From Candidatus Aminicenantota bacterium (GTDB lineage: Bacteria > Acidobacteriota > Aminicenantia > UBA2199): a stretch of DNA of 46,634 nucleotides. The notes below the pieces were generated by a model. That model was not told the DNA's origin and made no database searches. It worked only from the letters and a program-made list of their open reading frames with translations. Position numbers and translations under genes: made by a program. Positions 8,150 to 34,919 of this stretch are shown here, in pieces. How positions within the stretch are numbered: the first letter of the stretch is position 1; every line of letters starts with the position of its first letter. The stretch lies in the NCBI GenBank assembly GCA_027318645.1, contig DAHVOV010000133.1, forward strand, positions 1 through 46,634. The letters run 5' to 3'.

Positions 8150-8177
8150 TTGCAACTTCGGCGAAACCAGATAAAAT
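8150..8177 (+). promoter_or_regulatory. promoter TTGCAA-N16-TAAAAT, -10 ends 6 nt before the ATG (predicted leaderless)
   Basis: TTGCAA 8150-8155, TAAAAT 8172-8177, CCGTTC, ATG 8184; an in-frame TAA lies inside the -10, so no upstream start is possible. Confidence 0.6.
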
Positions 8178-8183
8178 CCGTTC

Positions 8184-8756
8184 ATGACTTCCCGACCGAT
8201 CCATCACAAATTACGCCGCGACCTGGAAGAAAGCCGGATTGATGGCAAGGTGATCGTTTTATTCCTGCCGATCGCGTTCGTCACGTATCTCATCCACGAG
8301 TCCGGGCATTGGGCATTCGGCGAGCTTCTGGGAAACGACATGGTGCTGGGCCTGAACAGCTCTGCCCCGAAAAGCGGCCATTTCATCCATGGTTCCCATG
8401 CTCTGTGGTCCGCGCTGGGGGGGCCTGCCTTCACATTGCTGCAAGCGCTCGTATTTTTCTTGATCGCACGGATGACAAGATCGATCCATGCATATTCCGC
8501 CGTATTTTTCGCCGCGTTCTCGAGACTCTTCTCGATCGTTTTCGGCGGCATCGACCTGCAGGACGAGGCAAGAATCGCCTCCGCTTTGGGCGCGAACAAG
8601 TATTGCGTCGCGGCGATCGTGATGGCGCTGCTTTTTCTGGTCTTGTGGTGGTGCACGCGGATGATGAAGCTGAAAATGAAGGCCGTGGGATATTTTGCCG
8701 TTCTAGGAACGACGGCCATGCTGATCGTGATCGGAGTAAACGGATTGATCGCGTGA
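8184..8756 (+). CDS. Small M50-like integral membrane zinc metalloprotease
   Basis: HESGH (HExxH) in a hydrophobic context (VTYLIHESGHWAFGELLG), later LGGPAFTLLQ and multiple TM segments. Confidence 0.6.
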   Translation: MTSRPIHHKLRRDLEESRIDGKVIVLFLPIAFVTYLIHESGHWAFGELLGNDMVLGLNSSAPKSGHFIHGSHALWSALGGPAFTLLQALVFFLIARMTRSIHAYSAVFFAAFSRLFSIVFGGIDLQDEARIASALGANKYCVAAIVMALLFLVLWWCTRMMKLKMKAVGYFAVLGTTAMLIVIGVNGLIA

Positions 8757-8927
8757 TTCGGTCCTTGCCTTTTCGTGCCCAGGGGAATAGCATCTGCCGG
8801 GGCAACGCATGGCGAACGGCGTTCAGCGTTCGCTTCCCCCTTTCCAGTCCCGATTCAAGGAGGAACCGTGGCAATCAAGGCAAAAACCGGCATTGCATTT
8901 CCGGCCAGTGTTGCCAATAATGGAATC

Positions 8928-9662
8928 ATGAAGAAAAATAGTCTTCCCAGTCTGCTTGTTTTGCCGGTGCTCCTTCTGGCCGCCGCCGCCACGGTCCAAG
9001 CCCGGAACCTGGACATAAAGTGGATCGAGGTCGAGGGGGGAGCGTTCACGCCGGCAAGCGGCGGTTCGACACGTCCGATCACGCTCGACGGTTTCTTCAT
9101 GAGCGCGACGGAGGTGACCTTCGATCAGTTTGACGCCTACTGCGAGGCGACAGGGGCAAGAAAGCCGGATGACGCGGGTTGGGGCAGGGGCAGCCGGCCG
9201 GTCCTGAACGTGTCCTGGGAGGAGGCGGCCGCCTTCTGCCGCTGGCTGAGCCGGGAGATCGGGGCTGAAATCCGCCTGCCGAATGAGGCGGAATGGGAAT
9301 ATGCCGCAGCGGGCGGCAACCGGAGCAAAGGCTACCGGTACAGCGGCAGCAATACCTGGCGGGAGGTATCGTGGTCCGAGGGGAATTCCGGCGGCATGCC
9401 CCACCCGGTCGGGGGAAAGAAGCCCAATGAACTGGGCCTGTACGACATGAGCGGCAACCTCTGGGAGATGTGCGCAGATTGGCCTGCAGGCGATCCGGCG
9501 AAGCCGCGATCCGCCAGCGGGAGCCGCGACGGGGGCGTGAAGCGCGCGGTGCATGGGAATTCGTATGACAATCCCGCCAGCGACCCCAGGCGCGCCGACG
9601 TGCACGTCTTTCTCGGGGAAGGCCACATCAACGTTGGCTTTCGCGTCGTTAAGACGATATAA
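8928..9662 (+). CDS. FGE-sulfatase (SUMF1/EgtB/PvdO fold) domain secreted protein
   Basis: WIEVEGGAF, ATEVTFDQFDAYC, PVLNVSWEEAAAFCRWLS, RLPNEAEWEYAAAGG, NELGLYDMSGNLWEMCADW, GFRVVK; signal peptide from the Met at 8928. Alternative in-frame GTG at 8868 with AAGGAGG upstream. Confidence 0.85.
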   Translation: MKKNSLPSLLVLPVLLLAAAATVQARNLDIKWIEVEGGAFTPASGGSTRPITLDGFFMSATEVTFDQFDAYCEATGARKPDDAGWGRGSRPVLNVSWEEAAAFCRWLSREIGAEIRLPNEAEWEYAAAGGNRSKGYRYSGSNTWREVSWSEGNSGGMPHPVGGKKPNELGLYDMSGNLWEMCADWPAGDPAKPRSASGSRDGGVKRAVHGNSYDNPASDPRRADVHVFLGEGHINVGFRVVKTI

Positions 9663-9719
9663 GGCGGTCCCGCCCCAATGCTGGAGCGGAACGGCAGCAG
9701 CGGAGATCGGACCGGCGTC

Positions 9720-9748
9720 TTGAATTTTCGCCGCCGGTGGAGTATAGA
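9720..9748 (+). promoter_or_regulatory. promoter TTGAAT-N17-TATAGA
   Basis: TTGAAT 9720-9725, TATAGA 9743-9748, 17-bp spacer; upstream of the CDS at 9810. Confidence 0.55.
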
Positions 9749-9809
9749 TGCCATCCGCGAAAAGCACGCGGACCCGCTCCGCGAAGCGGAGGGTCCGGCG
9801 GGAGGGAAA

Positions 9810-10781
9810 ATGAACAAGACCGCCCATGTCGCCGCCTGGATCATGGCGCTGGCCATCGGCCTGGCGGCCGCGCCGCTGCCGGCGCGGACGGCCCCCGAGA
9901 TGAGGAAATGGGAGGCGCTCGGCGCGCAGCACAGGAACGAATTCTCCGGCCAGCCGCAGAAGAAGGCGATGTTCATCGCCGGCCTGGTCGCGGAGCGCCT
10001 GGCCCAGGACGGCGTCAAGCCCAACGCCGACGTCATCGGCCGCGCGGGGGCGCTGGCGACGCACGGCGACCAGGCCGCCGGGACCTGCGGCGACGTCGCC
10101 GAGGTCATGCGCAACGCCTTTGTCGGCGCCGGCTTCGCCCACCACGAGATATTCAAGCTGGTGGTGAGGAAGTTGGGGCTGAACCAGCTGAACCGCGGCT
10201 GGGTGTTCGACGTCAACATCGAGCACGTCGTGTTCGGCGCCGTGGTGGACGGCAAGCCGGTCGTGTTCGAGGCCTGGGGCTACGGCGGGGAGAACGGCTC
10301 GTTCGCCGGCTTCTACAAGAGCGTCTGGAACGGCATGGACCTGCACGTCTGGCTCGCCACGATGCGCAAACACGGCTACGACACCTACTCGTACGGCGAC
10401 GACCATTTCCGGCCGGTCGACGCCGACCGCATCTCGAACTTCCTGAGGAAGCTCGAGTTCAAGGGCTCCAGCCGGCCGGCCAAGCGCCCGACGCTTGTTC
10501 CGGGAACAAGCCCCGGCGGCGGCGACGACACCGCCCGCGTCGAGTCCGAGTTCCGTTCGCTCTATCCCCTCTGGCTAAGGAAACGGGACGACCCCACGAG
10601 CGTCACCACCGTCCTGGTCAACGCCCGCAGGGAGGGCGACGGCCGCTACTTCATCAGCATCGAGACCCGCTGCCGCAACGCCCAGGGCGCCAGCTGGGTG
10701 TGCGCGTCGCGCACCCTGTACATGACGCTCGCCGACCTGCGCGAGAGCGTCCAGGTCTACAAGCGCGACCTGGGGCGATGA
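9810..10781 (+). CDS. Secreted protein of unknown function, possible transglutaminase/papain-like fold
   Basis: Signal peptide; Cys in AAGTCGDVAEVMRNAF and His in FDVNIEHVVFGAVVDGKPVVFEAWG in an order compatible with a Cys-His hydrolase fold; GGAGG upstream of the ATG. Confidence 0.5.
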   Translation: MNKTAHVAAWIMALAIGLAAAPLPARTAPEMRKWEALGAQHRNEFSGQPQKKAMFIAGLVAERLAQDGVKPNADVIGRAGALATHGDQAAGTCGDVAEVMRNAFVGAGFAHHEIFKLVVRKLGLNQLNRGWVFDVNIEHVVFGAVVDGKPVVFEAWGYGGENGSFAGFYKSVWNGMDLHVWLATMRKHGYDTYSYGDDHFRPVDADRISNFLRKLEFKGSSRPAKRPTLVPGTSPGGGDDTARVESEFRSLYPLWLRKRDDPTSVTTVLVNARREGDGRYFISIETRCRNAQGASWVCASRTLYMTLADLRESVQVYKRDLGR

Positions 10782-10848
10782 GCACACCCGGGCAGCCGAT
10801 GAAGGAAAGGGACGTCGCCGGCCATTCGCGCCACCGGGGCCACGCCGC

Positions 10849-11934
10849 GTGCTGATCGCCGCCGTGCTCGCCTTTTCCGCGCTGCTGGCCGCATGGGGCG
10901 TCCTGCTGGCGTTGAGCCCGGGCCGGCCGGCCCCCGTTCCCGGGAAGGACGGAAAGCCCGTTCCGGGCAGCGTGGCGGAAAAAATTTACGTCGCGATCAA
11001 CGGCGTCGAGCAGGGGATGTTCATCATCGGCAGGGACGCCCGGAATCCCGTCCTGCTGGTCCTGCACGGGGGAATGCCGGAATACTTCCTGGCCGACCGC
11101 TATCCGACCGGCCTGGAGGACCTGTTCACCGTCGCCTGGTGGGAGCAGCGCGGCTCCGGCATGTCCTATCGCGGCGACATCCCCAAGGAATCCATCACCC
11201 CCGAGCAGCTGATCGCCGACACCGTGGCGGTGACGAACTACCTGCGCCGGCGCTTCGCGAAGGAGACGATCTACCTGATGGCCCACTCGGGGGGGAGCTT
11301 CTTCGGCATCCAGGCCGCCGCCCGGCATCCGGAGCTGTACGCCGCCTATGTCGGCGTGGCCCAGATCGCCGACCAGGTCCGCTCCGAAAAGCTGGTTTAC
11401 GAGCACATGCTCCAGGCCTACAGGACGCTGGGGAACCGGCGCATGGTCCGGGCGCTGGAAGCGGCCCCGGTCACGCTGGATGGCGGCACGCCGCGCAAGT
11501 ACCTGGCCGTGCGCGACCGGGGCATGCACGGCCTGGGCATCGGCACCACCCGCCGCATGCGCTCCATCTTCACCGGATTGTTCCTCCCGTCCCTGGCCTT
11601 CCGGGGGTATTCGCTGCCGGAAAAGATCAATTTTTGGCGCGGCAAGGCCCGCAACGGCGTCAGCGTGATCTGGGAAAAGTCGCTGTTCGCCGACATGGGC
11701 CGGCTGGTGCCGGAACTGAGGATCCCGGCATATTTCCTTGAGGGGGTCCATGACCATACCTGCAATTACGGGCTGGCCAGGGAATATTTCACCCGGCTCC
11801 AGGCGCCGGTGAAGGGATTCTATTCGTTCCGGGATTCCGCCCACTGCCCCCATTTCGAGGAGCCCGAGAAGACGCGCCTCGTGATGCGGAATGACGTCTT
11901 GAACGGAACGAACGGACTGGCGGACTTGACGTGA
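10849..11934 (+). CDS. Alpha/beta hydrolase (proline iminopeptidase-like)
   Basis: VLLVLHGGMPEYF oxyanion region, WWEQRGSGMS, nucleophile elbow LMAHSGGSFFG, late Asp/His (GVHDHT, DSAHCPHFE). GTG start uncertain. Confidence 0.75.
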   Translation: MLIAAVLAFSALLAAWGVLLALSPGRPAPVPGKDGKPVPGSVAEKIYVAINGVEQGMFIIGRDARNPVLLVLHGGMPEYFLADRYPTGLEDLFTVAWWEQRGSGMSYRGDIPKESITPEQLIADTVAVTNYLRRRFAKETIYLMAHSGGSFFGIQAAARHPELYAAYVGVAQIADQVRSEKLVYEHMLQAYRTLGNRRMVRALEAAPVTLDGGTPRKYLAVRDRGMHGLGIGTTRRMRSIFTGLFLPSLAFRGYSLPEKINFWRGKARNGVSVIWEKSLFADMGRLVPELRIPAYFLEGVHDHTCNYGLAREYFTRLQAPVKGFYSFRDSAHCPHFEEPEKTRLVMRNDVLNGTNGLADLT

Positions 11935-12055
11935 CCTCCCGGCCGCGGGGAGCGGATATCGGCCGCCGGCTCATGCCCAAAAAGCGCGGAAAATTGATTT
12001 TAAACCCAAAGTTCTAGTTACTTGCCCGCTGTCGCGGCGTCTTACCAGGTGATGT

Positions 12056-12077
12056 CGGCGGCGTCCGGACGCCGCCG
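12056..12077. repeat. 22-bp perfect palindrome CGGCGGCGTCCGGACGCCGCCG
   Basis: Read directly; both strands identical across 12056-12077, upstream of the CDS at 12106. Confidence 0.9.
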
Positions 12078-12105
12078 GGGTCAAGCCAATACCCAGTGAG
12101 GCGCC

Positions 12106-14760
12106 ATGAAGATGAAAAGCACGCTGCTGCTATTGTTCGCATTATGGATGGCCCCGGCCGTCGCGGCCCGGACGGCCAACGATTCCCCGCCGCCCGCGGT
12201 CACGGCCGTGCGTGCCGAGGAGGCGATCCAGGTCGACGGACTGCTTAACGAGAAAGTCTGGCAAACCCCGGGGTATTCGGCGTTCACGCAGGTCGATCCC
12301 GCCGACGGCAGCGAGCCCAGCGAAAAGACCTCGGTCTGGGTGGCCTACGACGACCAGGCCCTTTACGTGGCGGCGTACCTCTATGACTCGGACAAGGCGA
12401 AGATCATGACCCGCCTCGGCCGCCGCGACGATTACGGCGAGTCCGACTGGTTCCTCTTCTGCGTCGACCCCTATCTCGACCGCCGGACCGGCTACCAGTT
12501 CGCCGTCAACCCCTCCGGGACGGTCTGTGACTGGACGCTGCAGAACGACACCTGGAGCGACAGCACCTGGGACGGCGTATGGGAGGCCAAGGCGGCCCTC
12601 AACGGCGAAGGCTGGGCGGTGGAGATGAAGATCCGCTTCAGTCAGCTGCGCTTCAAGCGCCAGGACGAGGCGGTCTGGGGCGTCGATTTCCAGCGCCTGA
12701 TCAAGCGCCGGAACGAGTTCATCACCTACGCCTGGAAGCCCAAGGAGAAGGTGGGCTTCGTCTCCTATTTCTCGCGCCTGGAGGGGCTGCGCGGGCTGAC
12801 GCCCAGCCGCTACCTCGAGCTCACGCCCTATTCCTTCGCCCAGGCGCGCTTCCGTCCCGGCGAGCCCGGGAACCCCTTCCAGACCGGCTCGAAGCTGCTC
12901 GGCGACGCCGGCCTCGACCTCAAGTGGGGGCTGAAGAGCGACCTGACCCTCGACGCCACCTTCAACCCCGATTTCGGCCAGGTCGAGGTCGACCCGGCGG
13001 TGATCAACCTGAGCGCCTACGAGACCTACTACGAGGAGCGCCGCCCCTTCTTCATCGAGGGCGCCGACACCTTCAACGGCTTCGGCCAGGGCGGCTCCAT
13101 GGGCGGCCCGATCTTCAACTGGCCCTCGCCCGTCTTCTTCTACAGCCGGCGCATCGGCCGCGAGCCCCAGGGAAGTTATGACGGCGACGGCTTCAGCACG
13201 GCGCCCGACGGCGCCACCATCCTCGGCGCCGCCAAGCTGAGCGGCAAGATCGGCGCCTGGAAGCTCGGCGTGCTCTCCGGCGTCACCGCCCGCGAGTTCG
13301 CCCGCATCGACGAGAACGGCGCGCGCTCGAGCCAGGAGGTCGAGCCCTTCACCTGGTACGGCGTGGCGCGGGCCCAGCGCGAGTTCGCCGCCGGCCGCCA
13401 CGGCCTGGGCTTCATCGCCACCGGCGTGCGGCGCGACCTGCGCGACGAGGCCCTGGCCGGCATGCTCAACCGCAGCGCCCAGGCCCTGGGCGTCGACGGC
13501 TGGACCTTCCTCGACGCCAGGCGCAACTGGTTCATCACCGGCTGGCTGGGCGCCACCCGCGTGAGCGGCGACCCGGAGCAGATGCTGCGGCTGCAGAAAT
13601 CCTCCATGCATTACTTCCAGCGGCCCGACGCCGATTATCTCCGGCTCGACCCGCAGGCCGGGTCCCTGAGCGGCTGGGGCGGCATGCTGCGCTTCGGCCG
13701 CGAGCAGGGCCGCTTCTGGATGCACGTCAACGCCGGCGCCATCTCGCCCGGCTTCGATCCCAACGACATGGGCTTCCAGTACAGCCTGTCGGACACGGTC
13801 AACAGCAGCGTCGACTTCTCCTACCGCTGGCCGCACCCGGGCAAGGTATTCCGCAGCGTCTTCACCTGGATCGGCGCGTATCGCACCTGGGACTTCGGCC
13901 TCAGCCGCACCGGCAACGGCGTCTCCGGCTCGCTGCAGACCGAGTGGCTCAACTACTGGTTCACCTATCTCAATTATTCCCTCTCCGCCTCCTTCTACAG
14001 CGATACCTTGACCCGCGGCGGGCCCCAGGCGCTGATGCCGTTCGGCTATTCGCTCAGCGCCGGGCTGAGCAGCGACTCGCGAAAGAAGGTCGTTCTCTCC
14101 TTCGACGGCTATTGGAGCCGACGGCCCGGATTCAATGCCACATGGGAAGGCAGCCTCTATGTCAAGGTGAAGCCGCAGAAAAGCCTGACCGTGAGCCTCG
14201 GCCCGGTGCTTTCACTCTCTCACACCGAGCTGCAGTACCTGAAGAGGGTCGCCGATCCGCTGATGCCCGCGACCTACGGCAGCCGCTATCTCTTTGGCCG
14301 CATCGACCAGAAGACCCTGGCCTGCGAACTCCGCCTCAACTGGTCGTTCAGCCCCAAGCTCAGCCTGCAGGCCTACATGCAGCCTTTCCTCTCGGTCGGC
14401 GCCTACAGCCGCTTTAAGGAGCTGGCGCGGCCGCGCAGCGACCAATACAACGTCTACGGCGAGGGCGCCTCGACCGTCGTGCGCGGGGAGGATGGCTACC
14501 TCCTCGACCCGGACGGCCCCGGGCCGGCCGCCTCGTTCGCCCTGGCCGATCCCGATTTCAACATGAAGTCGCTGCGCGGCACCGTGGTGCTGCGCTGGGA
14601 GTACCGGCCGGGCTCCCTGCTCTATTTCGTCTGGACGCAGAACCGGGCCGACTACTCCCACCCGGGCGACCTGCAGCTCGGCCGCGACCTGGATGCGCTG
14701 CTGACGGCCCCGGGCGACAACATCTTCATGATGAAGTTCACCTATCGCTTCAACATCTGA
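12106..14760 (+). CDS. DUF5916/CBM9-like outer-membrane protein
   Basis: Signal peptide, CBM9-like N-term (IQVDGLLNEKVWQTPGYSAFTQVDPADGSEPSEKTSVWVAYDDQALYVAAYLYD), SAYETYYEERRPFFIEGADTF, then a beta-barrel-like C-terminus ending MMKFTYRFNI. Confidence 0.85.
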   Translation: MKMKSTLLLLFALWMAPAVAARTANDSPPPAVTAVRAEEAIQVDGLLNEKVWQTPGYSAFTQVDPADGSEPSEKTSVWVAYDDQALYVAAYLYDSDKAKIMTRLGRRDDYGESDWFLFCVDPYLDRRTGYQFAVNPSGTVCDWTLQNDTWSDSTWDGVWEAKAALNGEGWAVEMKIRFSQLRFKRQDEAVWGVDFQRLIKRRNEFITYAWKPKEKVGFVSYFSRLEGLRGLTPSRYLELTPYSFAQARFRPGEPGNPFQTGSKLLGDAGLDLKWGLKSDLTLDATFNPDFGQVEVDPAVINLSAYETYYEERRPFFIEGADTFNGFGQGGSMGGPIFNWPSPVFFYSRRIGREPQGSYDGDGFSTAPDGATILGAAKLSGKIGAWKLGVLSGVTAREFARIDENGARSSQEVEPFTWYGVARAQREFAAGRHGLGFIATGVRRDLRDEALAGMLNRSAQALGVDGWTFLDARRNWFITGWLGATRVSGDPEQMLRLQKSSMHYFQRPDADYLRLDPQAGSLSGWGGMLRFGREQGRFWMHVNAGAISPGFDPNDMGFQYSLSDTVNSSVDFSYRWPHPGKVFRSVFTWIGAYRTWDFGLSRTGNGVSGSLQTEWLNYWFTYLNYSLSASFYSDTLTRGGPQALMPFGYSLSAGLSSDSRKKVVLSFDGYWSRRPGFNATWEGSLYVKVKPQKSLTVSLGPVLSLSHTELQYLKRVADPLMPATYGSRYLFGRIDQKTLACELRLNWSFSPKLSLQAYMQPFLSVGAYSRFKELARPRSDQYNVYGEGASTVVRGEDGYLLDPDGPGPAASFALADPDFNMKSLRGTVVLRWEYRPGSLLYFVWTQNRADYSHPGDLQLGRDLDALLTAPGDNIFMMKFTYRFNI

Positions 14761-14939
14761 GCCCCGGGGGGGCGTCCGCTGCGGCATGAATTTCTGGAAT
14801 CTGCTTGGAACAACCGTCCCGGTGCTCCTTTCCTTCCGATCTCTCCCGGCATGAGAGGGGCCCCTGTGTTTCTTTTTGCGTGAGACGTTCCGGTTTTATT
14901 ACTATTTTTTATATGACTGGACTCATAAAGGGGGGTACA

Positions 14940-16253: not shown

Positions 16254-16361
16254 GGGGGTCGGCAAGGAAACCCCTAGGGAAGAGGCGGGACATTTCAGAG
16301 TCACGCGCCCAGGTACGTTTCCCAAATGGCCGGTGCGCGCGGCCATCGTGAGCGCAGAATT

Positions 16362-16628
16362 TCAAGCCCGCTGCCTTCTCTTTCTCCTTCCCGTCCCGGG
16401 CGGCGTGCGCCGGGGGCCGAAGTACTTCTCGCTGCGGTAGCGCAGCCACACGCGCAGCACCTGGGGGACCTGCTCCCGCTGCTCCCGCGACAGGCCTTCG
16501 TACAGCCTCATGGCCATCTCGCGGTGGGTGCGGCAGGCGGGATTGCGGTGGGCGTCCCAGTACGAGCGGGCCAGCCGGATCATGCGGCAGGCCTCCTTGA
16601 CCGGGTCCACTGAGGAGCGTTCGGACAT
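16362..16628 (-). CDS. Small hypothetical protein (88 aa)
   Basis: Plausible composition (MSERSSVDPVKEACRMIRLARSYWDAHRNPACRTHREMAMRLYEGLSREQREQVPQVLRVWLRYRSEKYFG); -10-like TACCAT ends 6 nt before its ATG. Confidence 0.45.
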   Translation of the reverse strand: MSERSSVDPVKEACRMIRLARSYWDAHRNPACRTHREMAMRLYEGLSREQREQVPQVLRVWLRYRSEKYFGPRRTPPGTGRRKRRQRA

Positions 16629-16859
16629 GGGAGAATGGTATCACACCCGGGCATTTCCTGTCCCCGCGTCGCAGGCGGCGATATCCTCCGGGGGATTGTC
16701 CGTCCTTGCCGGGATGGCCTGCCGTTCGCCCGGCCGGTTGCCGGAATCACGGGCTGTCGCGGCGGCATCCCGCCCCCGCTGCTGCCGGCAGCGAAAGCCG
16801 GGGGTCGGTCCTGCCGGGCCGCGGGTGAAAATACCTCGCGCCCTTTCTCCCGCCCGCCT

Positions 16860-18412: not shown

Positions 18413-19699
18413 TCAGTCCAGGTCCGCCTCGAACCCGATGCGCTGCCCGGCGACGAGCCGGTCGCACTCGATCGTCAGGACCGGGGCGTCGCCGCCGGCG
18501 GCGATGGTGAAGCCCTTGTTCTCCCCGGGGCGCAAGCCCTTCAGCGACTCGGCGGCGCGCACGCCGTTGACCGCGACCCAGGCATCGTAATAGATCGGCG
18601 CGATCCCCTGGTTCTCGACCGTGACCTGCGCGCTCGTGGTTGCGGCCCGGAAGGCGGTCACGCGGAAGCGGTAGCCGACGGCCATGCCGGCCTGGCGGAT
18701 GCGCTCCGCCGTCTGGAAGGACGGCTGGTCGTCGCCGATCATGTAGCTGACGTTGTACTGCGCCGCCATCTCCTCGAAGGAGATGCCGTACGGCCCCGAG
18801 GGGTCCAGGGCATGGCGCTGGTCGTACGCGGAGTAGTAGCTGAACTCGCCGCCGACCGGCGAGCGCAGCCGCTTCTCCTGGCCGAAGAAGGCGAAGCAGT
18901 CGTGGTTGTAGCCGCCGTGGTCGCGGCAGAGGAAGGAGTCGTCGAAGAGGCCGAAGGGGATCTGCTTGAGCTCCGGCGACGAGGCGAACGGCGCGCGGCT
19001 CGCGTCGGCGGCGTCGATCGAGACGCTCCAGTGCAGCGTCGGGAAGCCGGACTCCATCACGCGGAGGAGCTCCGCCTGGAACTCCTTGGACGGGAAGTTC
19101 ACCCCCAGCTCCTCGCCGGGGTCGTAGACGTGGTACTCGGCCCATAGGCCGAAGCCGACCTGCAGGAAGGCCAGCCGCGGGTCCCGGTCATAGCGCGCGG
19201 CGAAGCGGCGAAAAAACTCCTTGACGAAGTCCTGCAGCGCGGGATGCGACCAGTCGGGGAAGAAGGTCCACAGGCCCTCCGAGCGCGCCCGGCTCTCGCG
19301 GTAGTCCGGGAGACGCTTGAGGAAGGCCGGCAGGGCCGTGGCCCGGCCCGGGTAGGTGTCGAAGAAGCGCAGGATCGCCTGGTGGCGGTGGGAGGCGGCG
19401 CTGGCGAGCAGGCGCTCGACCCGGGCCCAGCTCCAGGTCTGCGGGTCGGCCTCGGCGGCCACCTCGTCGTAGCCGACGTAGGAATATTCGAGCTGGATAT
19501 AGTCGCGGGAGCTGAGCCGGTTGTCGTTCCAGAGGACGATGCCGGCCATGGGCTGGACGTCCCTGATCGAGGAATGCAGGGGCACGTCGCGATAGTCCGG
19601 CGGGGGAGCGGGGCCGTCGGGATCGCGGACGGAGCATGCCGCCGGCAGGAGCAGGGCGGCCAGCAGCAGCGCCAGGAGGCCGGCTTTCTCGTCCTTCAT
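18413..19699 (-). CDS. DUF4832-like lipoprotein
   Basis: Lipobox LLPAAC; AGIVLWNDN, LQVGFGLWAEYH, YNHDCFAFFGQEK, GGEFSYYSAYD motifs typical of DUF4832 proteins. Confidence 0.7.
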   Translation of the reverse strand: MKDEKAGLLALLLAALLLPAACSVRDPDGPAPPPDYRDVPLHSSIRDVQPMAGIVLWNDNRLSSRDYIQLEYSYVGYDEVAAEADPQTWSWARVERLLASAASHRHQAILRFFDTYPGRATALPAFLKRLPDYRESRARSEGLWTFFPDWSHPALQDFVKEFFRRFAARYDRDPRLAFLQVGFGLWAEYHVYDPGEELGVNFPSKEFQAELLRVMESGFPTLHWSVSIDAADASRAPFASSPELKQIPFGLFDDSFLCRDHGGYNHDCFAFFGQEKRLRSPVGGEFSYYSAYDQRHALDPSGPYGISFEEMAAQYNVSYMIGDDQPSFQTAERIRQAGMAVGYRFRVTAFRAATTSAQVTVENQGIAPIYYDAWVAVNGVRAAESLKGLRPGENKGFTIAAGGDAPVLTIECDRLVAGQRIGFEADLD

Positions 19700-19705
19700 C
19701 CGTCC

Positions 19706-19711
19706 ATGATA
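19706..19711 (-). promoter_or_regulatory. extended -10 (TGC-TATCAT) ending 6 nt before the ATG at 19699
   Basis: Minus strand reads TGCTATCATGGACGGATG; no strong -35. Confidence 0.4.
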
Positions 19712-19801
19712 GCACAGGGCGCGGGAAAGGAGCGAGGGGGGCGCCGCGCCGCCGGGAACGGCCTCGCGCCGGGCAGCCGGCATGGACGCTTCATTCGCCC
19801 C

Positions 19802-19858: not shown

Positions 19859-19866
19859 GGACAATA

Positions 19867-25997: not shown

Positions 25998-26017
25998 GCG
26001 ACGACGCGGGCGACCGC

Positions 26018-26046
26018 TTGACTTCAGGAGGGGGAGCGGATAGTCT
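26018..26046 (+). promoter_or_regulatory. promoter TTGACT-N17-TAGTCT, -10 ends 6 nt before the ATG (predicted leaderless)
   Basis: TTGACT 26018-26023, TAGTCT 26041-26046, CCGGCC, ATG 26053; an in-frame TAG within the -10 excludes an upstream start. Confidence 0.6.
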
Positions 26047-26052
26047 CCGGCC

Positions 26053-26565
26053 ATGAAACGTGGTCCCGTCCTGCTGGTCCTGCTGGCGCTGCTGCCGGGG
26101 CTGGTTCTGGCCGGGCCGGGACTGCGCCTGCCGGGACCCGGCGCGGCCGGCGAGCGGAGGATCGACCACCGTGTCCGCGTCTGGTCCGACACCACGCCGC
26201 CGATCAACCTGACCCACCTCTTCGCCGGCGAGATCAACCGCCGCGGCAAGCCGGTCGGCTTCCACTCCCGCCCCGGCGGCGTCGACCCCCATGGCAGCGG
26301 CGTGGCGCGCGTCATCGACCGCCCCGGTCGCTCCGGCGTCTACACCGCCGTGGTCTGGATCGGGCGGCGCGGCCGCACCAAGTTCTCGACCTTTTATCCC
26401 GACCGGCTGACGCGGGCGCAGGTGATCGCCGCCGTCCTGGGCGCCTTCCGCAAGGGGCGGCGCAGCGGCGAGAGCTTCCGCGGCCCGTCGGGGCTCGGAT
26501 TCACCATCGAGGGGTATTTCCAGGGCGGTCGCATCCAGACGGCCTATCCTGTCTATTCCCGCTGA
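26053..26565 (+). CDS. Secreted bacterial EndoU-type nuclease
   Basis: Signal peptide then PINLTHLFAGEINRRGKPVGFHSRPGGVD...GVYTAVVWIGRRGRTKFSTFYPDRLTRAQV: two His and a Lys in EndoU order. Confidence 0.78.
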   Translation: MKRGPVLLVLLALLPGLVLAGPGLRLPGPGAAGERRIDHRVRVWSDTTPPINLTHLFAGEINRRGKPVGFHSRPGGVDPHGSGVARVIDRPGRSGVYTAVVWIGRRGRTKFSTFYPDRLTRAQVIAAVLGAFRKGRRSGESFRGPSGLGFTIEGYFQGGRIQTAYPVYSR

Positions 26566-26576
26566 GAGGAGCAGCC

Positions 26577-26915: not shown

Positions 26916-27023
26916 GGAGCCGCGTCGGCGGCACTGCCGCCCGGACCGGCAGCACGCCGCCTTGTCGTGCGAGTGAGATATTCCCCTCGTTCTCGCATAG
27001 AATCACCTGGCAGCAATGTGGAG

Positions 27024-28424
27024 ATGAACATGAAAAAGAACTTGTTTTTTTGCCTGATCGCGCTGGCCGGACTGAGCGGCCTCCTGCTTCCCGCCGCCTC
27101 CATCACGGTGACCAGCCCCGTGGCCGGGGAAACACTGCGCACGGGATGCGTGGCCACGATCCGCTGGACGGCCACCGATGTCGCGGGCGACGTGCGCATC
27201 GCGCTCTACCGCGGCGTCGGCGGCGACCGGCTGGGGCTCATCGAGAACCGCATCCCCGCCGCCGCCGGGTCCTTCTCATGGACGGTGGGGGAGCTGGGCT
27301 CCGGCAGCGCCGGGAGCGGCGACGACTACCGCATCCATGTCGTCGAGATCCTCGGCGCGACCACGGGCCAGAGCGGGGCCTTCTCGATCACGCCTGCGGC
27401 GCCGATGCTTCACGTCATCAGCCCCAACGGCGGCGAGGCCCTTGTCATCGGCGCGGACGGCGGGGTGCGCTACGAGTATTCCAACCTTCCCGGCCGGGAC
27501 CTGGTCCTGGAGCTGTACCGCGGCGGCACGGCAGCGGCCAACCGCGTGGGCCGGCTCTACCCCGACGCCCAGTCCGGGCATTCTCCCTGCGGCAGCTCCT
27601 TCCTGGCCTGGCACAATGGCTACGTCAGCGGGACCTATGCCGCCGAGGGCCGGAACGCCTACTATGTCCGGGTCATGACCCCGGACGGCAGCCTGTCCGA
27701 TTTCAGCGACGCCCCCTTCTCCCTGGCCGCGCCGCCGGCGGAGGAGCCGGCGGAAGAACCTTCCGCGTCCGCCGGCTCGATCACCATCTCGTCGCCGCTG
27801 GCGCCCCTGACCCTCAGCCACGACTTTTCGCTGGGCTGGAACGCCCGCAACATCGACGGCGAGCTGGTGATCAACGTGCTGCGCGAGGCGGGCGGCACCT
27901 GGACCATCGCCACCAGCGTCGATCCCGGCCGGGCCTACGGCCGCTTCCACTGGATCGTCGGCCAGCTGCCGAACCGCAATTCATCCTTCCCGCCCGTGGC
28001 GGGGCAGCGCTTCCGCTTCCAGATCAGCGGCCGGGGCAGCGACGGCCGGGCCGTGATCGCCACCGGGCGCTGGTTCGAGATCGTCTCCCCGGGGATCAGC
28101 GTGTCCGAGCCCCACGCCAACGAGCGCCTGGAGCGCGGCGGCCACAAGACCATCATGTGGAGCGCGCCCGCCCTCCATGGCGGGGTGCACATCGAGGCCT
28201 ACTACCGCCCCAGCGGCGGGGCCTCGTTCTCGAAGTACTCGCGCCTCTTCGAGGATGTCGCCAACAACGGCCACCGCACCTGGAACATTTGGGGTCGCCC
28301 CCACGGCATGACCGGCTCGATCGACGGCCCGCCCTCGGGGAACGGCGTCCGCTGGCACATCCGCGTGATCTCGGCCCGCTGCCCCTGGATCTTCGCCGAA
28401 GGCCCCGAGTTCATCCTGGAGTGA
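27024..28424 (+). CDS. Secreted protein with about four Ser-Thr-rich (Kre9/KNH-like) repeats
   Basis: Repeats beginning ITVTSPVAGETLRTG, LHVISPNGGEALVIG, ITISSPLAPLTLSHD, ISVSEPHANERLERGGHKTIMWSAP; signal peptide. Confidence 0.75.
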   Translation: MNMKKNLFFCLIALAGLSGLLLPAASITVTSPVAGETLRTGCVATIRWTATDVAGDVRIALYRGVGGDRLGLIENRIPAAAGSFSWTVGELGSGSAGSGDDYRIHVVEILGATTGQSGAFSITPAAPMLHVISPNGGEALVIGADGGVRYEYSNLPGRDLVLELYRGGTAAANRVGRLYPDAQSGHSPCGSSFLAWHNGYVSGTYAAEGRNAYYVRVMTPDGSLSDFSDAPFSLAAPPAEEPAEEPSASAGSITISSPLAPLTLSHDFSLGWNARNIDGELVINVLREAGGTWTIATSVDPGRAYGRFHWIVGQLPNRNSSFPPVAGQRFRFQISGRGSDGRAVIATGRWFEIVSPGISVSEPHANERLERGGHKTIMWSAPALHGGVHIEAYYRPSGGASFSKYSRLFEDVANNGHRTWNIWGRPHGMTGSIDGPPSGNGVRWHIRVISARCPWIFAEGPEFILE

Positions 28425-28591
28425 GCGGCGGCCCCGGCCCTTGCCGGGGAACCGTCCGGGCGAACTCCCGCGCGGCACGCCGGCGCCGCCCGGCGAGACG
28501 CCGGCCTGAAGACGTTTTTTCGCTCCTGATCGCGCGAAGGGTCAGGGGGGATCCACCCGAGTACCATGGCCCGCTGGCGGGCCGAGGCAGC

Positions 28592-28628
28592 AAAAAAAAG
28601 CCGCTCCGGAACGCTCCCGGAGCGGCTT
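28592..28628 (-). terminator. Rho-independent terminator for the minus-strand gene ending at 28651
   Basis: 12-bp perfect stem AAGCCGCTCCGG/CCGGAGCGGCTT with 7-nt loop and an A8 run at 28592-28599 (T tract on the minus strand). Confidence 0.9.
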
Positions 28629-28650
28629 GGGCAATGGCGCGGCGAAACGC

Positions 28651-29460
28651 CTAGTTGACGGGCACGGGCACGGGTTCGCCCGCCGGCAGCTCGGTCGCCG
28701 GAACCTCCGCCGCCGGCGCCGGGACCTCGGCGGCGGCATGCTCCTTGGTCCAGCGGGCCTCGCAGGTCTTGCAGAGCTCGGTGATGTTCTTCAGCTCGCG
28801 CGCCTGGGCCACGGTGCCTTCGAAGATCTCGTCGGTCTTGCTGGTGTTGATGTGCTGGCAGTCGGAGTACAGGTGATACTTCGATCCCGACTTGGTCCAG
28901 TAGACGTGGTTCTGGCCGGTGAGCTGCTCGACCTGGGCCGTCTGCTGGGCATACTGCTCCTGCGACGGCGGGTTGAAGTCGATGCCGGTGAAGCCGGCGA
29001 TCAGCAGCGCCACCACGGCGACGGCGCCGACCAGGCCCTTCTGCTTGCCCTTCAGGTCCTTGTTGGTGAGGATGAGCAGCACCAGGGGCAGGAAGGCGAT
29101 GACGGCGATGATCGCGCCCAGCTGGTTCTGCACGAAGAACCGGACCTTCTGCTTCTCCGAGGCCGGGTCGAAGCGGTTGGCCTTCTTCCACAGCAGGTTG
29201 CCGATGACGGCGAAGACCAGGTCGGCGGCGATCAGCACGATGAGCAGCCACGTCTTGATCGGCTGCACCCGCAGCTGCAGGATGGCGGCGACCTCCAGCC
29301 CGATGGCCACGATCCAGGAGAGGACCGCGAAGAGGCGGAACTTCCCGGCCTTGGCCTTGCTCTCGGGAGCGGGGACGAATGTCCGCGCCTCGGCGGCGGG
29401 CGAAGAGGCCGCCTCTCCCTCCACGTGGGTCAGCTTTTTCTTGGTTCCCTTGTCTGGCAT
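28651..29460 (-). CDS. Multi-pass membrane protein with C-terminal Ada-like Cys/His metal-binding motif
   Basis: TM segments then HVYWTKSGSKYHLYSDCQHINTSK...LCKTCEARW. Start trimmed to the Met at 29460. Confidence 0.7.
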   Translation of the reverse strand: MPDKGTKKKLTHVEGEAASSPAAEARTFVPAPESKAKAGKFRLFAVLSWIVAIGLEVAAILQLRVQPIKTWLLIVLIAADLVFAVIGNLLWKKANRFDPASEKQKVRFFVQNQLGAIIAVIAFLPLVLLILTNKDLKGKQKGLVGAVAVVALLIAGFTGIDFNPPSQEQYAQQTAQVEQLTGQNHVYWTKSGSKYHLYSDCQHINTSKTDEIFEGTVAQARELKNITELCKTCEARWTKEHAAAEVPAPAAEVPATELPAGEPVPVPVN

Positions 29461-29569
29461 GTTGTTCCCTCCTGGTAGCCGGCATTGTAATACAAATGGG
29501 AGAAAAAATAAACAGGCAGAAGATCCGTCGCCATGCCGGGCTGGACACGGGCCGCCGACGAGGAGCGAA

Positions 29570-29598
29570 TTGACATTCGCCACCGGCCTCACTATAGT
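29570..29598 (+). promoter_or_regulatory. promoter TTGACA-N17-TATAGT, -10 ends 6 nt before the ATG (predicted leaderless)
   Basis: TTGACA 29570-29575, TATAGT 29593-29598, GACGCG, ATG 29605. Confidence 0.7.
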
Positions 29599-29604
29599 GA
29601 CGCG

Positions 29605-30621
29605 ATGAGTGAAAACGCGAGGGTGTGGCTGCTCTTGCTGCTGGTCGGGATCGCCTGGGCCGGATTCGCCGGAGGCATCATGCCCGGGAAGCTTGATGAT
29701 GTGGCCGGCTCCATCGCCCAGTCCGTCGTGGTCAAGGTGGAGCGCATCAGCACAAGGGAGGTCTTCGAGAAGTGCAAGCGAATCCCGGCCCGCACCTACA
29801 TGGACATGCAGTGCCTTGCCCTGCGGACGCTCTATGGCCCCGAGGCGCCGGACACGCTGCATGTCCGGCTGACGCTCGACGCCTGGGCCTGGTACGACGA
29901 GAATTGCAGGGAGCAGGGGCACGCCTGGCTCCTGGTGCCGCATTCGGGGATCGAGTACGAACTGAAAGAGGGCCAGTCCTATGTCTTCAGCTTCAAGGAT
30001 TCCGCTGGGGCGGGGAGCGCGGAAGCCCCCCGGGAGCTGCTGCGGGCCGACCGGGAACAGGACGCCCATGCCGTGCAGGACGCCGTCTGGCAGGCGCATC
30101 GCACGGACGAGAAGCCGATCCTGAAGGAGGTGGCCCAGGCCCTGGTCGCCGAGATCGTCTCCCTGGAGCAGGAGAATCCGCTTCATTCCCAGGACGGCGG
30201 CCCGGAAGGCGGCTGCCCTCCCGCGGCCTTTGACCGCTTCTACCGCTGCCGGGCCATCCGCTTGCTTGCCGGCCCTCCCCTGTCGGGGGAATTCAAGGTC
30301 TCCGTCCTCATGCTGAACCCGAGCGCGGAATGCCGGACCCGCAAGTCGTTCATCCTGGAGCGCGGCGGCGACGCGGCGTTCGTCGCCGAGCCCGAACTCA
30401 AGGTCGGCGGCCGCTACTGCTTCCTCTCCTTCGAGGCCGCCCGGCCGGAGGATGCGGCCGCCTATCTGCCGGCCTGCTGGGTGGACGCGGAAGGCAGGGC
30501 CGACAGCCTAAGCGACAAGATCAGGAAGTGGAGGACCCCGGCCGGGGAGGAAGCTCGGCATCCGAGCAGCTGGGCAGCCTTCCTTTTGAACAGGCTGGAA
30601 TCATCCTGCGGCAGGGAGTGA
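29605..30621 (+). CDS. Hypothetical membrane-anchored/secreted protein
   Basis: N-terminal hydrophobic segment VWLLLLLVGIAWAGFAGG; no family recognised. Confidence 0.65.
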   Translation: MSENARVWLLLLLVGIAWAGFAGGIMPGKLDDVAGSIAQSVVVKVERISTREVFEKCKRIPARTYMDMQCLALRTLYGPEAPDTLHVRLTLDAWAWYDENCREQGHAWLLVPHSGIEYELKEGQSYVFSFKDSAGAGSAEAPRELLRADREQDAHAVQDAVWQAHRTDEKPILKEVAQALVAEIVSLEQENPLHSQDGGPEGGCPPAAFDRFYRCRAIRLLAGPPLSGEFKVSVLMLNPSAECRTRKSFILERGGDAAFVAEPELKVGGRYCFLSFEAARPEDAAAYLPACWVDAEGRADSLSDKIRKWRTPAGEEARHPSSWAAFLLNRLESSCGRE

Positions 30622-30628
30622 CGACAGC

Positions 30629-31453
30629 ATGCAGGGAGGATACGGGAACCCCGAGGATCAGCTGGCGCATTACACCTGCTTCCGCGCGCCGGGCCCCATC
30701 CGCGTCGACGGCCGCCTCGACGAGGAGGCATGGCGGGAGGCGCCGCTCTCGCCGCCGTTCGTCGACCTGGTGACGGGCGCCCCGGCGCCGCTGGACACCC
30801 GCATCGCCTGCCTGTGGGACGACCGCGCCCTGTACGTCGCCTTCCGCGTCGAGGAGCCCCATGTCCGCGCCACGCTCACCCGGCGCGACTCGTTCGTCTG
30901 GAACGACAACGACGTCGAGGTCTTCATCGCCGGGGACGACTGCTATTACGAGTTCGAGATCAACGCCCTGGGCACGGTCTACGAGGCATTCTTCGTCTGG
31001 CAGGACGCTCTGAAGCCGGGCGGCCGCTTCGACGCGCCCGAGTACGACCCGCGGCGGCGCGACGTCGACCTGCTGGGCGGCTTCCAGGACGCTTCGCGCT
31101 TCGGCCGCCACCCGCGCGGCAAGCGCTGGGCCTTCCTCGACTGGGACCTGCAGGGGCTGGAGGCCGCCGTTCACGTCGACGGCCCGCTCAACGACCCCGC
31201 CCGTGCCGGCTCGGGCTGGACCGTCGAGCTGGCCTTTCCCTGGCAGGGGCTGGGTCCGCTGTTCGCCGGCCGCCCGCTGCCGCCCCGCGAGGGCGACGTC
31301 CTGCGCGTCGACTTCTCGCGCTTCGAGCCGCTGGGCGACCCGGCGCGCAAGCCGGCGCCGGGCTGGTGCCTGAACGCCCACGGCGTCTACGACTCGCACA
31401 TCCCCGAGTGCTTTTCCTTCGTGCACTTCAGCGGCCGGGCGGCCGGGCGCTGA
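30629..31453 (+). CDS. Carbohydrate-binding family 9-like protein
   Basis: IRVDGRLDEEAWREAPLSPPFVD..RIACLWDDRALYVAFRVEEPHV..VWNDNDVEVFI...YYEFEINALGTVYE. Confidence 0.85.
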   Translation: MQGGYGNPEDQLAHYTCFRAPGPIRVDGRLDEEAWREAPLSPPFVDLVTGAPAPLDTRIACLWDDRALYVAFRVEEPHVRATLTRRDSFVWNDNDVEVFIAGDDCYYEFEINALGTVYEAFFVWQDALKPGGRFDAPEYDPRRRDVDLLGGFQDASRFGRHPRGKRWAFLDWDLQGLEAAVHVDGPLNDPARAGSGWTVELAFPWQGLGPLFAGRPLPPREGDVLRVDFSRFEPLGDPARKPAPGWCLNAHGVYDSHIPECFSFVHFSGRAAGR

Positions 31454-31507
31454 GAGCGGGAAAGGGAACGATCCGGCGGGGCGGCGCGCGGCGGGGAGCC
31501 GGGAAGC

Positions 31508-31966
31508 CTACAGCGCGAATCCGAGCGTGAAGCCGAAGGAGAGGTCGCTGAACAGCTCCTTCCAGGCGGTCAGCATGTAGGCGCCCAGGCGGAACTTGCT
31601 GGCGCGGACCCCGGCCTGGAGCTTCAGCTCCAACGGGATCGACAGGCCGGTGGACTTCAGCCAGATCTCCTTGACGATGCCGGCGCCGACGAACAGCTGG
31701 CCGCGGGTGAAGTTGAAGGTGCCGCCCGGCGCCAGGAGCAGCGAGTCGGTCTCGAACTTGTTGTTCACGTACAGCGTGCACTCCGGGCTGACCATGAACA
31801 GGCCGCCGACGGCGACGTCGAAGGTGACGTTCCCCGAGAAGACCAGCGGCTTGAAGTCGAAATCGCCGCGGGTGAGGATGCCGAAGTTGGCGCTGACGTC
31901 GATGCTCTGCGCCTGGACCAGGCCGGCGCTCGCGAGAACGATGATGACGATCCATGCTTTTTTCAT
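31508..31966 (-). CDS. Small outer-membrane beta-barrel-like protein
   Basis: Signal peptide MKKAWIVIIVLASAGLVQAQ and alternating amphipathic strands; AGGAGG Shine-Dalgarno. Confidence 0.65.
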   Translation of the reverse strand: MKKAWIVIIVLASAGLVQAQSIDVSANFGILTRGDFDFKPLVFSGNVTFDVAVGGLFMVSPECTLYVNNKFETDSLLLAPGGTFNFTRGQLFVGAGIVKEIWLKSTGLSIPLELKLQAGVRASKFRLGAYMLTAWKELFSDLSFGFTLGFAL

Positions 31967-32036
31967 GCGCCCTCCTGGGACCGCGTAATGGTAGACGAGG
32001 GGAAACGAAAAATCAAGCCCCGGCGCGCGCGGACGT

Positions 32037-32570
32037 TCAAGGGCCGGCCGCGCGAAAGCGATCCGCGGCGACGTGCCACTCCCACTCGCGCTCACCGTCG
32101 TCCATGTCCGGGCGCGCCGCCGGCCGGCGCGTCGCGGGATCGAGCTTCCCATAGTCGCCCGCGGCGCGGAAGCGGACGACGCCGGCGCCCACCCAGCGGA
32201 TGTCGCTCCACGAGTACGGGTAGGGTTCGACGCGGGAGAGGGGAGCGCCCGCGGCCAGCTCGGCGAGGCGGTAGAGGTTGACCGCCTGGTGCCCCTCGCC
32301 GCTGGAAACGGACAGCAGCAGGTCCTTGCCGGGGGAGACGAGCGCCTGGTCGATCGCGGCCAGCTCGTCGGGGAGCTCGGGCACGACCAGGTTGCCGGCC
32401 GCGTCGACCAGCGCCAGGAGGTCGCGGCCGGGCGGGCCCTGGACGTTGCCGATGACCACGATCTCCCGGCATGAGGGCGCATCCACCGCGATGCGGCGCA
32501 GGTTGGGGAACTCCGCGGCCGCTCCGGTCGCGGCCGCCAGCAGCAGCACCGTCCAGGGAATCCGTTTCAT
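32037..32570 (-). CDS. Secreted hypothetical protein
   Basis: Signal peptide MKRIPWTVLLLAAATGAAAEF; GGAGG upstream. Confidence 0.6.
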   Translation of the reverse strand: MKRIPWTVLLLAAATGAAAEFPNLRRIAVDAPSCREIVVIGNVQGPPGRDLLALVDAAGNLVVPELPDELAAIDQALVSPGKDLLLSVSSGEGHQAVNLYRLAELAAGAPLSRVEPYPYSWSDIRWVGAGVVRFRAAGDYGKLDPATRRPAARPDMDDGEREWEWHVAADRFRAAGP

Positions 32571-32651
32571 GGCCGCCTCCTCGCCAGGGCGCCGCGCGGG
32601 CGCCGGCGTACACTGTACCGGCGGCGCGGATGTTTTTCAAGGGAGCCTTAT

Positions 32652-32680
32652 TTGTCACCGGCGCGGTTTTGGTTTATAAT
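32652..32680 (+). promoter_or_regulatory. sigma70-type promoter TTGTCA-N17-TATAAT
   Basis: TTGTCA 32652-32657, TATAAT 32675-32680, 17-bp spacer, upstream of the MATE gene. Confidence 0.75.
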
Positions 32681-32722
32681 CGCTCCTTAGCACGATCCCC
32701 TTCATCTTTCCGGAGAACGCGA

Positions 32723-34105
32723 GTGGACAATTCCCAGGAACTGGGCCAGGCCCCGGTCGGAAAACTGCTCTGGAGGTATTTCGTCCCCGCCATCATCGGC
32801 GTGGCGGCCAATACCCTCTACAACCTCGTCGACCGCGTCTACATCGGCCAGGGCGTCGGGCCGCTGGCCCTTTCCGGCCTGACCGTCACCTTCCCGATCA
32901 TGATCATCGCCATGGCCTTCGGCATGCTGGTGGGCATGGGCTCGGCCGCGCTGGTGTCGATCCGCCTGGGCGAGGGGAAGCGCGGCGAGGCGGAGAAGAT
33001 CCTGGGCCATGCCTTCGTGCTGCTGGCCGGCATCTCCCTGGCCGTCAGCGTCCTGGGGCTGCTGCTGCGCGATCCCGTCCTGAGGATATTCGGCGCCGGC
33101 GCGCAGACGCTTGGCTACGCCCGCGAGTACATCACCATCATCCTGCTGGGCAACGTGTTCCAGGGCGTGGGCTTCGGCCTCAACAACCTGATCCGCGCCG
33201 AGGGCCACGCCCGCGTCGCCATGACCACCATGATCCTGGGCGCCGCGATGAACATCGTCCTCGACCCGATCTTCATCTTCGTGTTCAAGATGGGGGTGGC
33301 CGGCGCCGCCCTGGCCACGGTGATCTCCATGGCCGCCACCTGCGCCTGGGTGCTGGCCCACTTCACCGGCCGGCGCGGCCTGCTGCGGCTGCGGCGGCGC
33401 AATCTCCGCCTGGAGCGGCCCATCGTCCGCGACATCTTGGCCATCGGCATGGCTCCGTTCGCCATGCAGCTGGCCGGCAGCGTGGTCAACGCCCTGTTCA
33501 ACATCCAGCTGATCCGCTTCGGCGGCGACCTGGCGGTGGGCGCCATGGGCATCATCAACGGCGCGGCCATGATGGCCGTCTTCTGCGTGATCGCCGTCAA
33601 CATGGCGGCGCAGCCGATCATCGGCTTCAACTACGGGGCGCGGCAGTTCCTGCGGGTGAAGCGGACGCTGAAGATCGCGCTGGTCGCCGCCGCCGCCATC
33701 ACCGGCGCCGGCTTCCTGCTGGTGCAGCTCTTCCCGGCGGCCATCATCGGCCTGTTCAGCCGCCACGATCCCCGGCTGCTGGCCATCGGCACGCGCGGCA
33801 TGCGCATCCTGCTGGCCGCCTTCCCGGCGGTGGGGCCGCAGGTGGTCAGCTCCAACTTCTTCCAGGCCATCGGCAAGGCCCGCATCTCCATGGTCCTCAA
33901 CATGCTGCGGCAGGTGATCCTGCTGATCCCGCTGGTGCTGCTGCTGCCGCCGCTGCTGGGCATCGACGGCGTCTGGCTGGCCGGCCCGCTGGCCGACGCA
34001 TCGGCCGCGGTCATCACCGCCTGGGCCATCAAGCGCGAGGTGCGGCACCTCAACCGGCGCTGGCACGAGGGCCGAGCGTCGCTGGCCGTCGACCCCATCG
34101 CCTGA
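32723..34105 (+). CDS. MATE family efflux transporter
   Basis: FVPAIIGVAANTLYNLVDRVYIGQGVGPLALSGLTVTFPI, QPIIGFNYGARQF; about 12 TM segments; GTG start after GGAGA. Confidence 0.9.
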   Translation: MDNSQELGQAPVGKLLWRYFVPAIIGVAANTLYNLVDRVYIGQGVGPLALSGLTVTFPIMIIAMAFGMLVGMGSAALVSIRLGEGKRGEAEKILGHAFVLLAGISLAVSVLGLLLRDPVLRIFGAGAQTLGYAREYITIILLGNVFQGVGFGLNNLIRAEGHARVAMTTMILGAAMNIVLDPIFIFVFKMGVAGAALATVISMAATCAWVLAHFTGRRGLLRLRRRNLRLERPIVRDILAIGMAPFAMQLAGSVVNALFNIQLIRFGGDLAVGAMGIINGAAMMAVFCVIAVNMAAQPIIGFNYGARQFLRVKRTLKIALVAAAAITGAGFLLVQLFPAAIIGLFSRHDPRLLAIGTRGMRILLAAFPAVGPQVVSSNFFQAIGKARISMVLNMLRQVILLIPLVLLLPPLLGIDGVWLAGPLADASAAVITAWAIKREVRHLNRRWHEGRASLAVDPIA

Positions 34106-34119
34106 ACCGCGGCCGCCGG

Positions 34120-34148
34120 TTGCCATTTCCCCGGCGTTCGCCTACAAT
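34120..34148 (+). promoter_or_regulatory. promoter TTGCCA-N17-TACAAT, -10 ends 6 nt before the ATG (predicted leaderless)
   Basis: TTGCCA 34120-34125, TACAAT 34143-34148, CCGGGC, ATG 34155. Confidence 0.65.
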
Positions 34149-34154
34149 CCGGGC

Positions 34155-34919
34155 ATGGACCCGAGGCTGAAGGAAAGGTTTGCCGCGCTGTTCGCGAGGT
34201 ATTTCCCCGGCGCCGAGCCGCCGGTCGCCTTCTTCTACGCCGACGCGCCGCCGCCCGGGATGAAGACGGAGCCGAAGAGCAAGGGCTGGCGCTGCTTTAT
34301 CGCCGACCTGGGCCGGGCGCGGAAAGGGGAGCCCCTGTGCCTGGACGAGCCGGCGCTCGGCTGCGGCAAGCGCTTCTGCGGCTTCCCGGCGCCGCAACGG
34401 CCCGATTTCGAGCACTTCCTGTCGTCGGGCATCCCCGGCAAGATGGAGGGGGAGCGCTACAAGAAGGACCCCGCCACGGTGCGCGAGCTGATGAAGCACA
34501 TGCCGGAGTGGCAGGCACCGGGGCGCTGCCTGGTGCTGAAGCGCTGGGACGCGCTGGCGGGCGCCGACGAGCCCGAGGCGGCGATCTTCTTCGCCGCGCC
34601 CGACGCCTTGTCCGGCCTGTTCACCCTGGCCAACTTCGAGGAGACCGATCCGTTCGGCGTCATCGCCCCCTTCGCCTCGGGCTGCGCCTCGGTGATCCAG
34701 TACCCCTTCCTGGAGAACCGCAAGGCCGCCCCCCGCTGCGTGCTGGGCATGTTCGACGTCTCGGCCCGCCCCTGCGTCGGCGCCGGCGAGCTCACCTTCG
34801 CCGTGCCGATGAGGAAGCTCGAGCGCATGATCGGCCAGATCGAGGAAAGCTTCGTGACCACCCGCTCCTGGGAGAAGGTGCTGCGCCGCCTGCGCGCCGC
34901 CGCCGGCGCCGGGGGCTGA
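34155..34919 (+). CDS. DUF169 family protein
   Basis: PFASGCASVIQYPFLENRKAAPRCVLGMFDVSARPCVGAGELTFAVPMRKLERM. Confidence 0.75.
   Translation: MDPRLKERFAALFARYFPGAEPPVAFFYADAPPPGMKTEPKSKGWRCFIADLGRARKGEPLCLDEPALGCGKRFCGFPAPQRPDFEHFLSSGIPGKMEGERYKKDPATVRELMKHMPEWQAPGRCLVLKRWDALAGADEPEAAIFFAAPDALSGLFTLANFEETDPFGVIAPFASGCASVIQYPFLENRKAAPRCVLGMFDVSARPCVGAGELTFAVPMRKLERMIGQIEESFVTTRSWEKVLRRLRAAAGAGG

Follow-up and report, generated by a model that had tools for sequence, protein, structure and literature searches.

Contig DAHVOV010000133.1 of the Candidatus Aminicenantota bacterium assembly GCA_027318645.1 is a stretch of 46,634 nucleotides (nt), termed the window here. It contains several open reading frames (ORFs) whose ATG is preceded, at a distance of exactly 6 nt, by a hexamer of the form TANNNT, which resembles the -10 box of a bacterial promoter. 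Do the messages of such genes begin on the start codon itself, without a ribosome-binding leader? Judged from the DNA sequence, they very probably do. Ordinary sigma70-type leaderless transcription, operating beside Shine-Dalgarno (SD) initiation, is strongly favoured as the explanation. The window is one of 408 contigs in an assembly of 2.80 Mb (completeness 93.8%, contamination 0.69%). The GC content of the genome is 69%, and that of the fetched contigs ranges from about 61% to 76%.

The number of nt between TANNNT and ATG is termed k. Offsets k = 0–15 were profiled in the window, and TANNNT-Nk-ATG was found 11 times at k = 6, with a mean of 1.27 (range 0–3) at the other 15 offsets. The probability of the k = 6 peak is about 1e-7 (1.7e-6 when corrected for 16 offsets). 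Six of the 11 matches are credible gene starts: 8184, 26053, 29605 and 34155 on the plus strand, and 16628- and 19699- on the minus strand (Table 1; sites are named by the position of the start codon, and a minus sign denotes the minus strand). The remaining five (16326, 37142, 40639-, 30630- and 17948-) are intragenic or head tiny or antisense ORFs.

The original prediction had proposed leaderless starts at these six sites and at 8928, and all seven sequences that it quoted were found where it placed them. The four sites that it considered strong (8184, 26053, 29605 and 34155) have the -10 hexamer at 6 nt from the ATG and a -35 element at 16–17 bp, as it described. Among the three that it considered weaker, 16628- and 19699- stand and are stronger than it had judged, but 8928 was rejected as a leaderless start. 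The sequence AATAAT at this site is not a TANNNT hexamer, and an in-frame GTG at 8868 with an SD sequence (AAGGAGG-AACC-GTG) is at least as likely to be used. Six of the seven named sites thus hold.

The fixed distance also stands out in the whole genome. Enrichment at one offset genome-wide was the test by which the prediction was to be judged, and TANNNT-N6-ATG is present 250 times, versus 90 times for the reversed pattern. A near-consensus form of the promoter (a TTGACN -35 element, a spacer of N14–18, TANNNT, k nt and ATG) is found 33 times at k = 6, once at k = 5 and 12 times at k = 7. Its background is 77 over the twelve offsets k = 9–20, i.e. 6.4 per offset, and the reversed control gave 0 at k = 6. 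Versions of the motif with GTG, TTG or CTG in place of ATG show no comparable k = 6 peak. Counts anchored on genes were made in 1.19 Mb of contigs. Here TANNNT stands at k = 6 from an in-frame ATG in 50 of 441 genes that lead a transcription unit, whereas other offsets average 8.9, and the k = 6 motif is found in 6 of 469 operon-internal genes, against about 1. The odds ratio for leading versus operon-internal genes is 9.9.

A set of 62 sites was chosen on TANNNT and ATG only, which leaves the -35 and TG positions unselected. These sites display a TTGAC block at positions -35 to -31 (T.79, T.68, G.63, A.53, C.55) and a TG extension of the -10 box at positions -15/-14 (.48/.52). The interior of the box resolves to TAtAAT, and GC-rich sequence separates the box from the ATG. 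A k = 6 peak is seen separately for sites with a good -35 (33 sites) and for sites with the TG extension (31 sites), with backgrounds of a few. This is the anatomy of a sigma70-type promoter: a TATAAT-like -10 box, with a TTGACA-like -35 at 16–18 bp or a TG extended -10. None of the 62 box sites has an SD match of at least 5 nt; the corresponding shares are 40% for other leading genes, 36% for internal genes and 8% for random sequence. The proposal that two initiation modes coexist in this genome is supported by these figures. A preference for C at position -1, just before the ATG, was also considered as a start-site signal and was dropped, as it is nearly equal in SD-led genes (66% vs 73%). 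Outside of the window, the genes behind such promoters are diverse, e.g. a GGDEF sensor, an amidohydrolase, an M16 peptidase, an NAD-dependent epimerase and an undecaprenyl diphosphate synthase.

Box and distance are conserved in orthologues at four of the sites, 34155, 16628-, 26053 and 19699-. Three full-length orthologues of the DUF169 gene at 34155 (in G125, G136 and G137, with 71–75% identity) keep TTGC- and TACAAT or TAAAAT at exactly 6 nt, and the filler between box and ATG is unrelated among them. A broken copy of this gene (G128) keeps TTGC- and TATAAT, again with a distance of exactly 6 nt; the pattern is gone from another copy (L234) that is more degraded. In nine other genomes of the genus, the ATG of the EndoU gene (26053) is preceded by TAGGCT, TAATCT or TACAAT, at 6 nt in two genomes and at 7 nt in seven, and eight of these nine relatives have a TTGA(C/A) -35. 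In six other genomes the ORF at 16628- is preceded by a TANNNT box (TACTAT, TATAAT, TACCAT, TATCAT, TAGTAT and TACGAT), always at exactly 6 nt, and its relative in L090 has TAGGAT at 7 nt. For the ORF at 19699-, the relative in L088 (87% protein identity) displays TGTGCTATCATGGATGGATG; the sequence farther upstream differs.

The near-consensus promoter form was also counted per offset in 143 genomes of the class, with the totals transcribed by hand. In the genus of the window, the count at k = 6 is 618 and the background is 128.2 per offset, and all 16 genomes are above twice background; k = 7 gives 240 and k = 5 gives 70. Other genera of the family show 1240 at k = 6 versus 351.6 per offset, with the peak present in 17 of 18 genomes. 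Family f12 has 141 at k = 6 versus 33.4 and family f7 has 289 versus 134.4; families f2, f3/f4, f8 and f10/f11 show little or no k = 6 peak. Family f9 (~33% GC; G096, G097, G098 and G100; loci L247–L276) has 183 at k = 5 and 113 at k = 6 with a background of 51.5, and ORFs of real length lie behind several of its promoters.

It is possible, though doubtful, that the class has had the leaderless architecture from early on, with a -10-to-ATG distance set in each lineage: 6 nt in the family of the window and in f12, 5 nt in f9, and little or none elsewhere. If so, RNA polymerase would have come to select a start site one base away, and many genes would have had their promoters moved accordingly. 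The 5-nt family f9 is the only part of these results that could surprise a specialist.

A separate observation concerns family f2. Near-identical sequences such as TTGACTGGATATGTTTNTTCTATGTATTATTNTTNATG recur within and between its genomes (G001, G002, G007, G009, G010, G013 and others), as if a repeated element or a paralogue family shared one promoter and start.

The mechanism proposed for the box genes is as follows. A housekeeping-sigma promoter would be formed by TANNNT at positions -12 to -7, aided by the -35 element or the TG extension. With the hexamer at this position the usual sigma70 start would be the A of the ATG, so that the mRNA would begin with 5′-AUG and have neither leader nor SD sequence. 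Presumably 70S ribosomes would then recognise the 5′-terminal AUG directly, a process described for E. coli and mycobacteria (PMC9031893). The remaining genes would use SD or other leaders. The leaderless interpretation, which was that of the original prediction, is supported by the k = 6 peak in the genome and in the family, the bias towards leading genes, the replacement of the SD signal, and the retention of box and distance in diverged orthologues.

Three other explanations were weighed. The same promoters may start transcription 1–5 nt upstream of the ATG and give near-leaderless mRNAs with very short leaders. The choice of +1 normally varies by 1–2 bases, and such leaders are favoured by the k = 7 shoulder in the genus (240 vs 128 per offset) and by the 7-nt gaps in most EndoU orthologues. 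However, a +1 on the A of the ATG gives the best fit to so sharp a peak at k = 6, to the depletion at k = 5 in the genus (70 vs 128) and to the restriction to ATG, and very short leaders are considered improbable.

It is more improbable still that the boxes are real promoters but that translation starts from downstream in-frame codons, or that upstream promoters also give leadered mRNAs. Some coding-optimum starts do lie several codons away from the k = 6 ATG, and 8928 is an example of an SD-led start able to compete with a box-like sequence. Protein alignments of orthologues, however, start at the k = 6 ATG for 34155, 16628- and 19699-. In addition, the -10 box itself contains an in-frame stop codon at 8184 (TAA) and at 26053 (TAG), as the original prediction had pointed out, and longer proteins are thus excluded at these two sites.

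A chance or compositional artefact, i.e. A+T-rich boxes lying beside ATGs in a 69% GC genome, has a negligible probability: although 5 of the 11 window matches are intragenic or spurious, it is contradicted by the offset-specific peak, the reversed controls (0 and 90), the unselected -35 block, the absence of SD sequences, the conservation in orthologues and the replication throughout the genus.

Leaderless transcription from the A of the ATG is the preferred explanation, and several points weigh against it or against its extent. Some messages may carry a 1-nt leader, given the shoulder at k = 7 and the 7-nt EndoU gaps. The evidence at 29605 and 8184, where leaderless starts are predicted, comes from a single genome, their own: no homologue of 29605 was found among 15 genomes of the genus, and no orthologues of 8184 (or of 8928) were found in L088–L090 or the other loci compared. 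The gene-anchored contigs were partly chosen for carrying such promoters, which makes the leaderless fraction uncertain. When small contigs were taken in a nearly systematic, less selected series, the motif stood at k = 6 in only 6 of 154 genes and at k = 7 in 8, with a background of about 2.5 per offset.

The chance level for TANNNT-N6-ATG is about 117 genome-wide, as calculated from 49.7 per offset in the 1.19 Mb. Subtraction of this value from the 250 matches, a whole-genome count that is free of contig selection, gives roughly 130 putative leaderless genes, i.e. about 5% of genes and about a tenth of leading genes, for the strict motif only and with the exact fraction uncertain.

Table 1. 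Putative leaderless promoters in the window, and the rejected case at 8928
Feature	Position	Strand	Sequence elements
Leaderless-type promoter and start of ORF 8184-8756	8150..8186	+	-35 TTGCAA 8150-8155; -10 TAAAAT 8172-8177; spacer 16 bp; filler CCGTTC; ATG 8184
Leaderless-type promoter of EndoU-domain gene 26053-26565	26018..26055	+	-35 TTGACT 26018-26023; -10 TAGTCT 26041-26046; spacer 17; filler CCGGCC; ATG 26053
Leaderless-type promoter of ORF 29605-30621	29570..29607	+	-35 TTGACA 29570-29575; -10 TATAGT 29593-29598; spacer 17; filler GACGCG; ATG 29605
Leaderless-type promoter of DUF169 gene 34155-34919	34120..34157	+	-35 TTGCCA 34120-34125; -10 TACAAT 34143-34148; spacer 17; filler CCGGGC; ATG 34155
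Extended -10 for ORF 16362-16628	16626..16643	-	TG-A-TACCAT 16635-16643; 6 nt to ATG 16628; no clear -35
Extended -10 for ORF 18413-19699	19697..19714	-	TG-C-TATCAT 19706-19714; 6 nt to ATG 19699; without -35
Rejected case AATAAT-GGAATC-ATG (8928)	8855..8930	+	in-frame GTG 8868 with AAGGAGG upstream; FGE-sulfatase-domain ORF

The products of the genes in Table 1 were compared with known domains. The EndoU domain (PF14436) is found with a value of 1.2e-18 and DUF169 (PF02596) with 3.4e-24. ORF 29605-30621 encodes 338 amino acids (aa) and its N-terminus is signal-peptide-like. ORF 18413-19699 is DUF4832-like with a score under the cut-off. ORF 16362-16628 encodes a conserved 88-aa protein (76–88% identity among genus-mates) that has no Pfam match. 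ORF 8184-8756, also without a Pfam match, encodes a membrane-like sequence of 190 aa that contains LIHESGHW (an HExxH motif); its codon usage is unlike that of the rest of the genome (coding score -4.7).

At 4709-8091 on the plus strand, the window encodes GatE (GatB_N) and GatD (asparaginase and GatD_N), which are of the archaeal type and are present here in a bacterium. Relatives occur widely in Zixibacteria, Bacteroidales, Cloacimonadota and some Clostridium. GatE has 93% identity to that of “Acidobacteria bacterium RA.bin124” and 82% and 80% to those of Candidatus Aminicenantes UBA2190 and UBA6072, respectively; all others are at 63% or less. No 16S rRNA gene is present in the assembly, and the assignment of the genome to Candidatus Aminicenantes (Acidobacteriota) is based on the GatE similarity.

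Leaderless expression is familiar from other bacteria, and here it is very probably a real and conserved habit of the Candidatus Aminicenantes lineage. A TANNNT hexamer situated about 12 bp ahead of the start codon is the mark of leaderless (TA-led) genes across bacteria (Zheng et al. 2011; PMC3160421). The genes described here resemble TA-led genes in the TANNNT distance, in the weak middle positions of the box in high-GC genomes and in the presence of SD-led genes alongside. In that survey all three Acidobacteria genomes had TA-led genes, at 13.3% of genes (range 9.7–19.4%); the fraction estimated here for an uncultured class is lower (~5% of genes, strict motif).

In Deinococcus-Thermus, TANNNT at 6–7 bp before the ORF serves leaderless promoters as their -10 box, as tested in Deinococcus (PMC12340547). 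The architecture adjoining the ORF is the same as that found here, but in Deinococcus-Thermus about 30% of ORFs are involved and GTG is the start codon in at least one case (pprI); the peak found here is restricted to ATG. The TTGAC -35 or TG extension is prominent here, unlike in Deinococcus-Thermus. Mycobacterium (PMC4633059) and other Actinobacteria are similar in having a leaderless class, a large one in their case, beside SD-led genes. Leaderless starts at GUG are efficient in M. smegmatis (PMC9031893), in contrast to the lack of a GTG peak here.

In the literature library searched, no paper contains both “Aminicenantes” and “leaderless”. Sequence conservation here extends probable leaderless expression to an uncultured lineage that no earlier report was found to cover. 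Gene finders that expect an SD sequence will misplace such starts, and the box gives exact predictions of promoter and start. The families of the class with a 6-nt peak, a 5-nt peak or no peak form a natural series for the gain, loss and spacing of leaderless promoters.

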